From the NCBI GenBank assembly GCA_017520545.1, contig JAFXFM010000017.1:1-48197 (forward strand): a DNA stretch of 48,197 bases, in the 5' to 3' direction. The stretch comes from Alistipes sp. (GTDB taxonomy: Bacteria > Bacteroidota > Bacteroidia > Bacteroidales > Rikenellaceae). The position numbers and the translations under genes were made by a program. The notes under the pieces are model-generated. The model was not told where the DNA came from and did not search any database. It was given only the letters and a program-made list of their open reading frames with translations. Shown here piece by piece: positions 10,570 through 36,172 of the stretch. Position 1 is the first letter of the stretch. Each line of letters starts with the position of its first letter.

Positions 10570-12189
10570 TTAGAAGTCGTAGCCCTCGATACTATCTGCG
10601 TAATCGCTCCAATACTGCGTAGACTTATATACACTTACTGAACTGTGTGGTACATAAATCTTGCGACCTAAAGCATTTTCATCAAACATACACTCATTGC
10701 CACTTGGAGGAGTTGTTGGCTTACAATACACTTTGGTCAACTTATCGCAGCCTTCAAGGAATGCTCCTCCGATTTCAGCTACACTATCTGGAATGGTTAT
10801 ACTTGATAAATTATCACAATCAACAAAAGCACTCCACCCAATACTTGTGATACTGTTTGGTAATACTATATTTGCTAAACTACTGCAATAGGCGAATGTT
10901 CCTTCTCCGATTTTACTTACCCCATTTGGAATTATAATGCAACCTGTTATACTAATGCAATCATATAAAGCATACTTTCCAATTTCAATAGCATTCTCCG
11001 GTATATTAAAATTATCAAGATTTTCGCAGCCTGCAAATGCAAACTCTCCAATAGATGTAATGCCACTTGGTAGAGTGATATTTATAAGATTTATGCAACC
11101 AAAAAATGCATAGTCTCCAACCATTGTAATTTCGCCATCAAATTTAATAGTACCTTTTCCATTTTCGTAAGTATTCGACATGATATTTGCACCGAAAGAT
11201 GGAGTTGCATAGTTATTTTCCTCTCCACTATATGGCTCAATAATCTGTCCATCTGTCGAGGTGTACCAAATTTCGTTATTGGCTGGCATTGGCGTGTCAT
11301 CGGGGTTGTAAGTTGCCTCGCCACTGTAGATATTATCATCTACGCTCCACTCCTTAATGCTAAAATTTACAACTAATCCATTACTGGGTGCAGAGACCGT
11401 TACCTCAATCTTATGTTGAATTCCCGCCGTAAAGGTTATATCGGTGGCAAATGAATACTCTTTGCCATTAATACTTATCGAAATCAAATTTGTATCAGCG
11501 CTAACAGTTTGAGGAACTATCATTGCACGGTAGTACGCTCCAGTGTTCCAAGGTATAATCTCGGTTACACCGCCCGTTGCCGTTGCAACACCGGTTGCAA
11601 GGTTGATGGTTGCAGAGTTCTTGATATTGCAAATTTTAACTTCGACATCTGCCGCTGCAAGTTCTTCTGCGGTGTAGCCCTCGCCAGCCTTGATATAAAC
11701 CAACGCATTGCTTAAAAGATGTTCCGTGGTAATTGTTACCGCATTTTTCGTAGGAGCAACACCACTGCGCTTGCCCCACAAAAAATCACTTGCCCAATAA
11801 TCAGCCTCTGCGCTTTGATCTATCTTAACACTGAATGGATATGCCGAAACATCGGTTGGGTTACCATATGGATAGTAAGCATAAAAATCTGCTTTGGTAG
11901 ATGCATCTCTCCAATACAACTCCTCATCTGCTCTCCAATCGGTTGAAAGAGTAAAACAAGCATTGCTTATATGGTTCTCCGTAGATGTTAAAGTTCCTGC
12001 CGTAGAGCCATTGTAATTTACCACATATAATCCGACCTGATCGCCACTCTCGAACGCAGTGTCATTAGCACGCGATTTTTCGAGGCTAATTTTAATCGGC
12101 ATTCGGTCAGCGAGTTGCTCGATTTGAGAATCATTTTGTGTGCAACCAATCAGCAATGCAGCCAATGCAAATAGTGAAAATCTTTTCAT
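10570..12189 (-). CDS. fimbrillin-like / BspA-type leucine-rich repeat lipoprotein
   Basis: This 539-aa protein is a predicted surface lipoprotein. The signal peptide MKRFSLFALAALLIGC has a lipobox with Cys16. Residues of about 30-300 look like a Mfa/fimbrillin-like domain (SGDQVGLYVV, AYYPY, YRAMIVPQ). After a linker, NEIWYTSTDGQ introduces about six 23-aa BspA-type LRR_5 repeats of pattern IGxxAFxxCxxLxxIxLPxxITS. The C-terminal IYVPHSSVSVYKS cap is typical. The reading frame stays open 98 codons further upstream, but that stretch is the structured leader and ATG 12189 begins the signal peptide. The gene is AT-richer than its neighbours. Adhesion or surface display is inferred from the family. 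Confidence 0.88.
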   Translation of the reverse strand: MKRFSLFALAALLIGCTQNDSQIEQLADRMPIKISLEKSRANDTAFESGDQVGLYVVNYNGSTAGTLTSTENHISNACFTLSTDWRADEELYWRDASTKADFYAYYPYGNPTDVSAYPFSVKIDQSAEADYWASDFLWGKRSGVAPTKNAVTITTEHLLSNALVYIKAGEGYTAEELAAADVEVKICNIKNSATINLATGVATATGGVTEIIPWNTGAYYRAMIVPQTVSADTNLISISINGKEYSFATDITFTAGIQHKIEVTVSAPSNGLVVNFSIKEWSVDDNIYSGEATYNPDDTPMPANNEIWYTSTDGQIIEPYSGEENNYATPSFGANIMSNTYENGKGTIKFDGEITMVGDYAFFGCINLINITLPSGITSIGEFAFAGCENLDNFNIPENAIEIGKYALYDCISITGCIIIPNGVSKIGEGTFAYCSSLANIVLPNSITSIGWSAFVDCDNLSSITIPDSVAEIGGAFLEGCDKLTKVYCKPTTPPSGNECMFDENALGRKIYVPHSSVSVYKSTQYWSDYADSIEGYDF

Positions 12190-12482
12190 TATTGAAATAA
12201 TTTTTGCTGCCCACCAACCCCGAATGAGGCATTTATATAAATAAAGAAAGTGTGAGGCTGACTTTCCGTTTATTGAATAGAAGGTTGTGGAATGACCTTT
12301 AAGAGAATAAACGCTGCATACCCCACACCTGTATATAGCAATACATTGGCATAGAGCATACCAACTGCGTATATACAAGAAATGAGTGCTGTTCGTTCGC
12401 CCTCTCTTATGAAAACTTCCACATTTTCTATTCAGGACTGCGAAAACACTTTCTATATGTCTGCAATCCGAGGACTGCACCA
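12190..12482 (-). ncRNA. structured leader RNA, copy A
   Basis: On the minus strand a 5' hairpin (12463-12478) starts the leader. A closing stem GAAAGTGT/ACACTTTC pairs 12446-12453 with 12246-12253. Stem 2 pairs TGAATAGAA and TGTGGAA (12417-12434) with TTCCACA and TTCTATTCA (12274-12292) across an AA/ACC internal loop. Stem 3 pairs TAAGAGA (12403-12409) with TCTCTTA (12300-12306). The conserved GGTGTGGGGTAT and CATTCGGGG follow. The copy at 34464-34753 has the same stems with compensating changes. The closing stem ends 56 nt before the ATG, as in the other copy. Function is unknown; a cis-regulatory leader is inferred. Confidence 0.75.
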
Positions 12483-16235: not shown

Positions 16236-16500
16236 TAATCGGATTGCGGAATACGCAATTCTTGTAGATGGCATTTAGGCTATTGTTTTGTTGATAAAAC
16301 GACCAATTTTATTTAGCGAACAGACAATAGGCACAATAAATGCCCTCGCCGTTTTGGCGTGGGTTGTGCTTTTGTTCGCGTGGGTACTTGGTCGTCCCCT
16401 TCAACTTAAAGCATCTATCCACGCTTCTTTATTTTTAGTTAAGCGGTTGCTATCTGACAGCAACGATGAACTTATGTTTAACTAAAAGTATTAAAGCATT
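16236..16500 (+). ncRNA. structured leader B with two competing folds
   Basis: A short 5' hairpin precedes a long rod. Nested stems are TAGATG/CATCTA, GTTGA/TCAAC, ACGACCAA (16299-16306)/TTGGTCGT (16388-16395), GCGAACA (16316-16322)/TGTTCGC (16373-16379), GCACAA/TTGTGC and CGCC/GGCG. An incompatible fold pairs GGCATTTA (16270-16277) with TAAATGCC (16337-16344) and CTATTGT with ACAATAG. A later hairpin near the start codon pairs TTTTAGTTAA with TTAACTAAAA around GTTGCT/AGCAAC. Cis regulation is inferred. A short reading frame across it looks spurious. Confidence 0.6.
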
Positions 16501-17094
16501 ATGAAAAAGTTATTATTAACAACAATGTGTTTGTTTGCAATTTGTTTTTCTTACGCTCAAACAAATGAGACTAATACAGAACAACATTTGAAATTCAAAG
16601 GTATTGCTATTGATGGTACACCAAATGAGTTCGGCTCAAAATTAGAAAATGCAGGGTATTCTTATACCAACAAAAATGGGGGAAACTATTATTATAACGG
16701 AGCATTTGCAGGATACGATAATTGCGAAATCATTGTCAAATCAACCAACAATCTAGTATATGAGGTTGTCGCCATTTTTCCAAAAAGTTATTCTTGGGGG
16801 CATTTACATAATACATATAGTTCATTAAAAAATATGTTAACTACAAAATATGGCAAACTAGAAGGTAAGGAGATATTTGAAAATACGCCAACTTATGTAA
16901 ATATAAATGACGACAATGTCAAATACAGAGAGGTTGGCTATAATAGATGTAAGTATTATTCGGTATTCACAAGTATCTTAGATGGATGGGGAACTATTGT
17001 ATTAGAAATTAAAAGTACTCATCGCGTAGGAATACACTATATAGATTTCTATAATGAACAAAAGAAAAAATCTTCTGCAATAAACGATTTGTAA
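16501..17094 (+). CDS. secreted protein of unknown function
   Basis: This 197-aa protein has a clear signal peptide (MKKLLLTTMCLFAICFSYAQ), so it is periplasmic or exported. The mature part has FKGIAIDGTPNEFGSKLENAGY, then a roughly 100-aa region rich in Tyr and Asn. I recognise no named family. The gene is AT-rich with codon use unlike the neighbouring trmD and lpxB. It has its own promoter, a long leader and its own terminator. The flanking signals are shared with the gene at 34754, which suggests the two belong to one class of transferred cassettes. Confidence 0.8.
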   Translation: MKKLLLTTMCLFAICFSYAQTNETNTEQHLKFKGIAIDGTPNEFGSKLENAGYSYTNKNGGNYYYNGAFAGYDNCEIIVKSTNNLVYEVVAIFPKSYSWGHLHNTYSSLKNMLTTKYGKLEGKEIFENTPTYVNINDDNVKYREVGYNRCKYYSVFTSILDGWGTIVLEIKSTHRVGIHYIDFYNEQKKKSSAINDL

Positions 17095-34455: not shown

Positions 34456-34463
34456 TAAATTTG
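34456..34463 (+). promoter_or_regulatory. promoter -7 box of the gene at 34754
   Basis: TAAATTTG, followed by the leader hairpin GCAGTTTTTGGATTGC at 34468-34483. Confidence 0.7.
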
Positions 34464-34753
34464 TGGTGCAGTTTTTGGATTGCAGACATAATTTGATGAA
34501 AGTGTATTAGCTTTTATCCTTGAATGGAAATCTGGAAAATTTCAAATGACCAAGGAGAGCAACGCACTCGTCACCGTGTATTTGGTGTTATGGCACTTTC
34601 GTTGCCCTATGCCTAAATACGGGTGTGGGGTATTGTTTATTTGGTCATAGGTATTCCAGAACCTCCATTCAGATAAACTAATCGGCCTCACACTTTCTTT
34701 TTTTATACTAACCGCACATTCGGGGCAGGTGAGCAAACAAAAAGTTATTTATT
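34464..34753 (+). ncRNA. structured leader RNA, copy D
   Basis: A 5' hairpin spans 34468-34483. The closing stem GAAAGTGT (34498-34505) pairs with ACACTTTC (34690-34697). Stem 2 pairs TGAATGGA and TCTGGAA (34521-34537) with TTCCAGA and TCCATTCA (34654-34671) over an AA/ACC loop. Stem 3 pairs ATGACCAA (34546-34553) with TTGGTCAT (34641-34648). Apical stems enclose GCACTC and lead to GGTGTGGGGTAT. CATTCGGGG follows. Relative to copy A the stems differ in sequence but keep pairing. The closing stem ends 56 nt before the ATG. Function is unknown. Confidence 0.75.
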
Positions 34754-36172
34754 ATGAAACGAATTTCTATTTTGTCAGTAGTTATGGCAATCCTATCCGT
34801 TTCTTTTATCTCTGCTCAAAACACGAGCGAGAAAGAGGTGTTATTCAAGAATGGAACTGTTAAAGGGGTATTTGCGAAGGGAGAGTTACAAAGAGGAAAT
34901 GCCTCTTTTTACTTTAATAAGGCAGAGATGCTTTTTGAAGGCAAATATATACCACACACAGACGCAGATAGCGGTGGTTTCAATTTCCGTGGAACATTGG
35001 TGTACAAAAACGAGAAATACACCTGCGTTGCTGCTTTAACAAACAATCTCGCAGAGTGGGGAGCAGATGCTGATTGTTGGGTACAGACAATTTACAAAAG
35101 AGGCTCCAAAAAGAGGAGTATAAACATTTCACACTTATACATTGCAGAGTATTGTCCCGCCGAAAAGTTTAGTCTTGTTGATAAAATTGTATCAAAAGAG
35201 AAAGAAGTCAAAGAGTGGGAGCGTTCATACTATAGAGAGCCTTTCTCCATTTTGGTAAATGGCAAGCACTCTATCTACTACAAAAATGGCAATATATATA
35301 CTGGCGAAAAGGGCGACGAGGAACTACTCATTGAATATATTTGGGCAAATGGAGATAAATACGAAGGATATGCAGCTAATTCCGCAGTGTATATAAAAGA
35401 GAAACTGGACCCTAGTGTAGGAGCGTTCGCTATGGACACTCGCGGATCAAGCACAGTGAATTTCGAAGATGTAAATAGAATTCTTTCTACCGATAAGTTT
35501 CCGCATTACATCAATCGTGAAGGCTGTTTTAAGTTAAAAGATGGTCGAGAAATTAAAATTTCAACATTATACGATATATATGATTGTGAAAACAAAAAGT
35601 TGGTATATAACGCATCTCAACTCTCTGGTGAAGGCAAAACCCCATCGGAAATTGTCGCTATTCGAGATAGTGTTGTCTTAGCGCAAGAGGCAAAAAAGCA
35701 GCAATTAGAAGAAGAGAAAAGGCGTTTGGAGGAGGAGAAAAAACGCCAAGAAGAGGAAAAAAGACAGGAACGAATTAAGAAGTATGGAGAAGAGATTGCT
35801 TCATTAATAGAAAAGGGAGAGGTTTCAATTGGTATGACCAAAGAGGCGGTATTAGAGTCGATACAGAACAAGAAGAAGATATACGACATCACCTACAACC
35901 AAAACCAAGAGTTCTGGCAGGCAAATCGCAATAAGGCAAATAAGTATATCCAATACGAAATGCCTAAATCTGCAGAAGAGGCAATGGCAGGAATGTTTAT
36001 GGGCGCAATTCTTCAAGTAACGGGGTTGTCAGAAGACTATCTGAAAGCATTATTCAAATACGACTATTTAGAGTTCAAAGATGGTGTTTTAGTTAGTTTT
36101 AGGGAGTGGCAAGACAGAGGAAATAGCTCCCCTCGTTATTACAGCAATCCGATGTCGTTATTTGGTCTATAA
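34754..36172 (+). CDS. exported coiled-coil protein with MORN-like segments
   Basis: This 472-aa protein has signal peptide MKRISILSVVMAILSVSFISAQ. The N-terminal 220 residues are beta-rich with MORN-like pieces (NGDKYEGYA, KNGNIYTGEKG). A charged coiled coil (QLEEEKRRLEEEKKRQEEEK) lies near residues 315-340. After it, IEKGEVSIGMTKEAVLESI resembles the start of SmpA/BamE-type domains, a weak likeness. The C-terminus contains a short hydrophobic AMAGMFMGAILQVTG. The gene is AT-rich compared with its neighbours. It shares promoter type and terminator with the gene at 16501 and leader fold with the BspA-like gene. No named family is recognised. Confidence 0.8.
   Translation: MKRISILSVVMAILSVSFISAQNTSEKEVLFKNGTVKGVFAKGELQRGNASFYFNKAEMLFEGKYIPHTDADSGGFNFRGTLVYKNEKYTCVAALTNNLAEWGADADCWVQTIYKRGSKKRSINISHLYIAEYCPAEKFSLVDKIVSKEKEVKEWERSYYREPFSILVNGKHSIYYKNGNIYTGEKGDEELLIEYIWANGDKYEGYAANSAVYIKEKLDPSVGAFAMDTRGSSTVNFEDVNRILSTDKFPHYINREGCFKLKDGREIKISTLYDIYDCENKKLVYNASQLSGEGKTPSEIVAIRDSVVLAQEAKKQQLEEEKRRLEEEKKRQEEEKRQERIKKYGEEIASLIEKGEVSIGMTKEAVLESIQNKKKIYDITYNQNQEFWQANRNKANKYIQYEMPKSAEEAMAGMFMGAILQVTGLSEDYLKALFKYDYLEFKDGVLVSFREWQDRGNSSPRYYSNPMSLFGL

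Follow-up and report, generated by a model that had tools for sequence, protein, structure and literature searches.

The SAM-I and lysine riboswitches are 5' leaders in which a terminator and an antiterminator exclude each other; they are present in several copies per genome and also as tandem copies, and they hold a conserved unpaired core between variable helices. The leader family described here has the same layout in all these respects, and with the T-box leaders it shares a long leader with a choice between terminator and antiterminator. Riboswitches occur in tandem, and the genes of a usual riboswitch regulon share a pathway. A survey of 2017 is said to comprise 224 motifs. DUF805 RNA (Rfam RF03081) is, like the present family, a cis-regulatory motif that is found in multiple copies in some genomes. 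Finally, the passages on Rfp18 of Flavobacterium psychrophilum in PMC9723704 describe a trans-acting small RNA, made as an independent transcript and linked to secreted proteases.

Rfp18 resembles our leaders in being a structured RNA of Bacteroidota with a link to secreted proteases. We set it aside on its description in those passages (trans-acting, independent transcript). The initial annotation of this DNA supposed that an orphan RNA of Bacteroidales in Rfam could match. This was not borne out: at the gathering score no family of Rfam 15 covers the leaders in the window or in the loci of 20 relatives, and permissive E-values add only weak matches far below the cut-off. The family is undescribed in the open literature that was searched and in the text passages of PMC6414381, PMC9723704, PMC8040213 and PMC11109978, i.e. 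outside their supplementary tables, and the terms sought for it are absent from the searched part of PMC8632094. It is possible that the family was listed earlier under a motif number.

Leaders in the window and the first fold

The window, i.e. the whole stretch of 48,197 nucleotides of Alistipes sp. DNA that was analysed, contains leader A (34464-34753, + strand) and leader B (12190-12482, - strand), which have a common fold with compensatory changes. The structured core of leader B, from P1 to P1', is at 12246-12453 (-) and is found by the covariance model R1 with an E-value of 4.2e-51. A diverged third copy, leader C, is at 16267-16427 (+; 29.4 bits, E 1.6e-4; 18.6 bits with R1), and it is absent from the whole-genome matches of R1 and R2 despite its 29.4 bits in the window. 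Inspected by eye, leader C has kept the helices of the second fold described below (Px as CTATTGT/ACAATAG, 3.4 as GCGTGGGT/ATCCACGC) together with a P2b of CGACCAA/TTGGTCG, and its P1 is weak.

The gene behind leader A (34754-36172, +) encodes 472 aa and the gene behind leader C (16501-17094, +) 197 aa, both with a signal-peptide-like start and with no Pfam match at E<=0.001. The gene behind leader B (10570-12189, -) encodes 539 aa with a start that looks lipoprotein-like by eye, and its Pfam domains are fimbrillin (Mfa_like_1) and BspA-type LRR_5. The closing stem ends 56 nt before the ATG both in A (34697 to 34754) and in B (12246 to 12189), exactly as had been annotated.

Read 5' to 3', the first fold (fold I) consists of P1, P2a, an internal loop AA/RCC, P2b, P3 and P4. 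On the + strand of leader A, the 5' strand of the closing stem P1 (strand 1, GAAAGTGT) is at 34498-34505, the 5' strands of P2a and P2b at 34521-34537 with the AA side of the loop at 34529-34530, and the 5' strand of P3 (ATGACCAA) at 34546-34553. Their partners P3, P2b and P2a follow at 34641-34671, with the ACC side of the loop at 34661-34663. Strand 2 (CACTC, 34565-34569, +) is the P4 partner of strand 3, a pairing that cannot be separated from relatedness. P1 rests on covariation, P3 on covariation and on the swap test given below. A small hairpin, P0 (TGCAG/TTGCA, followed by ACATA), was seen by eye in the own-genome copies near the presumed transcription start and is at 34467-34484 (+) in leader A.

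The base changes between A and B that the initial annotation reported could all be reproduced. The closing stem GAAAGTGT/ACACTTTC has the same sequence in both leaders. Stem 2 changes on both sides, from TGAATGGA/TCCATTCA in A to TGAATAGA/TCTATTCA in B and from TCTGGAA/TTCCAGA to TGTGGAA/TTCCACA, and the AA/ACC loop is kept. Stem 3 is ATGACCAA/TTGGTCAT in A and TAAGAGA/TCTCTTA in B, and both versions pair. The proposal of a cis-acting leader with covarying stems is supported by covarying copies that were found elsewhere in large numbers. The shared fold stood; the third copy, the wide spread of the family, the pseudoknot and the competing fold with its terminator layout were missing from that description.

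Fold I was evaluated on alignments of 60 and of 102 leaders, both of which were fitted to it; the larger one (A5) was built from 99 chosen sources, and an alignment A4 was made without L010, L042, L082, L085 and the antisense matches of L052 and L055. Among the 102 leaders 94.0% of the cells are paired, two-sided changes occur in 34 of the 38 pairs, and the number of two-sided cells is 1107 as compared to 338.7 after shuffling and at most 157 in the slid controls. The 60 leaders give the same picture (92.6% of cells paired; 565 two-sided cells vs 159.5 shuffled and at most 77 slid). All 22 pairs of P2a, P2b and P3 have changed on both sides in some of the 102 leaders, and the duplex energy falls off when a strand is exchanged with that of the nearest relative, from -10.3 to -3.3 for P2a and from -10.7 to -3.9 for P3. 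The pairing of fold I is thus far beyond chance. The internal loop is almost invariant: each A is conserved in 99% and both C in 100%, a purine precedes the two C in 98%, and AA and NCC are jointly present in 100 of the 102 leaders.

A second fold that competes for strand 4

The segments GGTGTGGGGTAT and CATTCGGGG had been annotated as unpaired, which does not hold: both can pair, the first in a competing hairpin and the second in a pseudoknot. The hairpin, 3.4, is formed by strand 3 (GTGTGGGG, 34623-34630, +) and strand 4 (CCTCACAC) and ends at a U-tract. In other leaders strand 3 is often GCGTGGGCTG and strand 4 CAGTTCCCACGC, and the helix is paired in 97.4% of the cells. Two more helices belong to this second fold (fold II). 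Helix 5.6 consists of strand 5 (GTTTAT, 34635-34640, +) and strand 6 (ATAAAC, 34673-34678, +), and Px joins the strand before P2 with the strand after P3, in leader A TCCTTG (34517-34522, +) with CAAGGA (34551-34556, +), the latter overlapping P3. Both helices are supported by swap tests and by the count of pairs. Px and 5.6 join the ends of the P2-P3 helix without a linker, from which we infer that they are unable to coexist with P2-P3. RNAalifold, applied to the first nine copies, returned the pairs of fold II and not those of fold I; noise as an explanation was rejected, since these pairs are the second fold.

Strand 4 (CCTCACACTTTC, 34686-34697, +; covariation, swap test) is common to three pairings, i.e. 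P1 (34690-34697), the terminator-like hairpin (34686-34693) and the pseudoknot (34685-34689). In the pseudoknot CATTCGGGG pairs back, GGGG with CCTC of the 3' strand of the closing stem; in leader A the downstream strand GGGGC is at 34722-34726 (+) and its partner GCCTC at 34685-34689. The partner of strand 4 is the loop of a small downstream hairpin. A duplex of -8 kcal/mol or better is present in 77 of 102 leaders, and several copies have no partner that is visible by eye.

The pairs of fold II played no part in the fitting of the 102-leader alignment. They are paired in 85.2% of the cells (79.1% shuffled, 46-59% slid), with 158 two-sided cells vs 74.4 after shuffling. In a swap test covering 97 of the 102 leaders, true pairs were compared with swapped ones, giving z values of -15.0 for Px, -13.3 for 3.4, -10.8 for 5.6, -12.7 for the pseudoknot and -10.9 for P1. 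Six of the eight comparison pairs were between -1.5 and +2.2, and the remaining two (z -3.8 and -6.5) correspond to short additional helices, which we named P1b and P3b.

When strands were exchanged between nearest relatives only, the excess persisted for Px (p=9e-7; 68 better, 30 worse), for the pseudoknot (p of about 4e-6, 3.8e-6 for the GGGGC strand), for 5.6 (p=2e-3; 56 better, 42 worse) and for 3.4 (p=9e-3; 50 better, 36 worse), and none of the five controls showed an excess (p 0.08 to 0.90). With relatedness controlled in this way, 3.4 and 5.6 retain a small effect. P1, 2.3 and 1.2 show no excess over the nearest-relative swap (p 0.88, 0.89 and 0.39), though they are above the distant swaps; they are inseparable from relatedness because their strands hardly vary. 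Px is 13 of 14 pairs, by eye, in the Segatella copri copies L265 and L267. As a separate observation by eye, strand 1 can form a local hairpin with the adjacent sequence (AAAAGC GTTA GCTTTT in L070), which makes a third possible partner of the P1 5' strand; the swap test of this self-fold, at leader positions 1-20, gave no covariation (z -1.5).

Distribution, promoter and downstream genes

In the own genome (1.93 Mb, 24 contigs) a DNA search with leader A recovered, besides A, seven more places at E<=2.3e-5, whose identity to it is 67-77%, followed by short matches in the promoter region and elsewhere. Model R1, built from nine own-genome copies, finds 11 copies at E<1e-10 and the broader model R2 finds 16 at E<=1e-5; the weaker R2 matches comprise one of E 1.35 and three that mirror true leaders on the opposite strand (E 0.015-0.096). 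At E<=0.01, R1 matched 36 of 61 genomes, i.e. 32 of 37 in the same genus (the own genome included) and 4 of 24 in other families. Up to 28 matches occur in one genome of about 1.8 Mb (G005). Five genomes of the genus (G009, G010, G016, G019, G026) have no R1 match, and since G019 is 99% complete, the family can be lost.

The search of further genomes with a covariance model, which the initial annotation had suggested, was run with R2. It had matches in 110 of 295 genomes of the order (74 of 178 genera), in 47 of 246 of the class sample, 40 of which are outside the order and 33 of those with one copy, and in 18 of 198 of the phylum sample, two of them outside the class. The order is taken to be Bacteroidales, as the match G052:C597:212-373 coincides with L137, whose record is named Bacteroidales bacterium. 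Each of these samples includes the own genome, and the copies per genome are lower bounds, since the best 8 (order), 10 (class) or 13 (phylum) candidates were scored. In named genomes a pattern scan gave 97 stretches, a number that is no measure of frequency as the pattern was chosen from the family itself, and R2 confirmed 78 of the 80 loci examined at E<=0.01. The two misses are in records named Alcaligenaceae and Parablautia; two genomes with non-Bacteroidota names had no R2 match at E<=0.01, which is weak evidence. Named carriers include Polaribacter glomeratus (L194), Galbibacter mesophilus, Aequorivita echinoideorum, Sunxiuqinia indica and Segatella copri. In S. copri there are 6 matches at E<=0.01, the best of them at 9.4e-18. 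The family occurs in gut and environmental Bacteroidota. A search of plasmids gave no match to the leaders. Leaders L025, L026 and L024 are on scaffolds filed as Bacteriophage sp. or as viral contigs, and a phage context from MT838511 and MT836914 was rejected as proof, as these are unannotated faecal scaffolds. In L114 two divergent leaders (745-903, -; 1471-1634, +) are less than 600 bp apart.

So many copies before unrelated genes (16 here, 28 in G005) could also be expected of a mobile or repeated, MITE-like DNA element whose terminal inverted repeats mimic the closing stem, and one genome does carry duplicated half-leaders (L155). We consider this very improbable: the own-genome copies are only 67-77% identical to A and yet keep compensatory pairs, the promoter, U-tract, pseudoknot and gene are kept in a strand-specific manner, and two alternative folds covary. 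In L155 the duplicated genes each follow a half-leader (1814-1925 and 2472-2569) in which the 5' half and strand 3 are present and the 3' half is absent, and a complete leader adjoins. A repeat element at contig ends was rejected after BLAST in three locus sets, where the leaders were mostly about 74-88% alike over some 80-330 bp at the leader, so that identical repeats do not account for the breaks.

Leader A is preceded by the promoter element TAAATTTG at 34456-34463 (+). It conforms to TAnnTTTG, which we take to be the Bacteroidota promoter consensus; this motif is found within 140 nt in 40 of 41 same-genus leaders, as opposed to 0.119 expected by shuffling, and its median spacing upstream of the stem is 32.5 nt. 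The downstream genes were counted for 176 unique leaders without a shared 40-mer, using one start rule for all ORFs and omitting L147 and L193 (cut) and L196 (partial). Full flanks, i.e. at least 400 nt on both sides, are available for 158 of them. Of these 158, 132 are followed within 260 nt by the start of a gene on the same strand, and 33 have a divergent gene within 320 nt upstream. Under the same rule the distance from closing stem to start in 142 genes has a median of 55 nt, with quartiles of 50 and 69 nt. Signal peptides, called by a simple rule of our own, are predicted for 100 of the 142 downstream genes and, among the other local ORFs, for 83 of 413 (Fisher 5e-27). Additional ORFs on the same strand, up to 4 kb away, have them in 103 of 222 cases, and the contrast with both sets pooled is 100 of 142 vs 186 of 635 (Fisher 2e-19).

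The own promoter element and the terminator-like end would also suit an independent small RNA that is merely placed before genes. This is improbable in view of the same-strand gene that follows in 132 of 158 cases at such a narrow distance, of the enrichment of signal peptides behind the leaders, and of the covariation of strand 4 with sequence past the terminator.

That the genes behind the leaders are unrelated, as was annotated for A and B, is borne out at the level of the family. The Pfam scan covered 121 of the 170 referenced downstream proteins and found 86 families in them, of which the 25 most frequent were listed; LRR_5 is the largest (n=7). The 121 proteins include BspA-type repeats in 7, an outer-membrane beta-barrel in 5 and a T9SS tail in 5. 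DNA methyltransferase or type I restriction domains are found behind L235, L236, L244 and L063, whereas TonB-dependent receptors are further downstream of L229, L237 and L240 and not the first ORF. PADLOC named LmuB for 3 of the 121 proteins and gave none for L043 and L087, which were checked, so that we base no claim on it. The genes behind L026 and L092 have a REase-ARP match. The common thread would seem to be exported or phage-facing accessory genes.

Terminator layout and comparison with known RNAs

At the end of 3.4 the T fraction in the family leaps from 0.08 to 0.95; it is 0.47 to 0.95 over eleven bases and then about 0.3. In leader A this U-tract is at 34694-34704 (+), directly 3' of the hairpin, i.e. 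in the arrangement of an intrinsic terminator. P1 takes strand 4 plus the first U's of the tract, and because it thereby claims a strand of 3.4, the hairpin has the layout of a terminator and P1 that of an antiterminator.

Minimum free energy predictions place 3.4 in 102 of 102 isolated 3' halves and Px in 91 of 102 isolated 5' halves, while whole leaders (n=102) have P2a in 98, P1 in 85 and 3.4 in 4 cases. In a growing transcript Px is predicted at 0.93 before P3' emerges and at 0.03 after, being replaced by P3 and P2; when the U-tract is reached, P1 is predicted at 0.83 and 3.4 at 0.04, and 60 nt of downstream RNA lower the share of P1 from 0.83 to 0.47. Fold I nearly always wins at equilibrium, so that for termination to occur either the kinetics would have to be fast or a factor would have to assist.

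We propose, with a probability of roughly 0.6, that the leader is a cis-acting two-state transcription attenuator of a riboswitch-like kind. Early in transcription the 5' half would fold on itself as Px. Fold I would be reached only by breaking Px during transcription: once the 3' half emerges, P3 and then P2 would displace it, P1 would sequester strand 4 together with the first U's, and without a terminator the polymerase would continue into the gene, with the pseudoknot to the downstream loop holding strand 4 in the read-through RNA. In fold II, Px would persist, 5.6 and 3.4 would close against the U-tract and transcription would stop. The AA/RCC loop is nearly invariant and exists only in fold I, and it is therefore the likeliest candidate site for a putative ligand or protein that would favour fold I, which would make the leader an ON switch. 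L111 (1280-1651, -) has two tandem leaders before one exported-protein gene.

The pseudoknot beyond the terminator counts against a pure attenuator, which needs nothing conserved there. A structured leader could instead act after transcription, with P1 and the pseudoknot near the start controlling translation or mRNA stability, and the U-tract could be a pause site or a structural part rather than a terminator. The pseudoknot is under selection past the U-tract, close to the start codon, where it makes sense only in read-through RNA, and in L234, L236, L244 and L248 an A-tract immediately 5' of the ATG can, by eye, pair with the U-tract. We nevertheless regard this reading as rather unlikely, since 3.4 ends at the U-tract and forms in all 102 of the 3' halves, features that translation control does not need. 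The four leaders just named are a subtype from outside the order whose pseudoknot partner is not visible by eye, and L236 and L244 are followed by DNA methyltransferase genes. The terminator/antiterminator layout is also that of a leader-peptide attenuator read by the ribosome, which is hardly probable here: ATG ORFs of at least 8 codons are fewer than in shuffled leaders (67 of 102 vs 84.8), and no alignment column has a start codon in more than 17 of 102, so a conserved short reading frame is not seen.

One may ask whether the leaders serve a phylum-wide RNA regulon, in which dozens of switch copies in some genomes read one global cue and set the expression of surface-exposed, exported and restriction-modification genes. 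This wider reading is doubtful at present. If it is true, the cue could be a second messenger, an RNA-binding protein, temperature or polymerase speed, the controlled genes would be those that face phages and hosts, and one RNA over BspA-type, T9SS cargo, outer-membrane and restriction-modification genes would form a new layer of surface and defence control. With up to 28 copies per genome in a phylum that is important in the human gut, and absent from Rfam 15, the family could rank among the larger uncharacterised cis-RNA regulons. The named cultured carriers make termination, signal and regulon directly testable, and the near-invariant AA/RCC loop within a hypervariable helix offers one precise site for mutation or for a ligand or protein screen.

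A DUF805 RNA was met next to a leader. In L123 (4471-4539, -) it lies 46 nt behind the leader, which gives the gene two cis motifs in series, and the genome concerned (G137) has 8 matches to DUF805 RNA at E<=0.01, 6 of them over the cut-off. The gene downstream of L044 codes for a DUF805 protein. The two RNAs differ: the DUF805 model has 68 positions and matched no leader in 20 loci, and the own genome has no match to it at E<=0.01.

With the riboswitch classes the leaders have in common a structured 5' leader in cis, as judged from position and structure, and mutually exclusive folds that computation ties to an expression platform. Their 86 downstream Pfam families, on the other hand, do not point to one ligand or pathway. 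Unlike T-box leaders they have no Rfam match and no aminoacyl-tRNA synthetase among the 25 most frequent Pfam families. Unlike SAM-I and lysine riboswitches, they stand before genes that share no pathway, they have a pseudoknot downstream of the U-tract, and their antiterminator is the whole long-range fold. Apparently, then, this is a new RNA family with a known kind of mechanism, in which the regulon, the copy number and the whole-leader exchange of strands are unusual.
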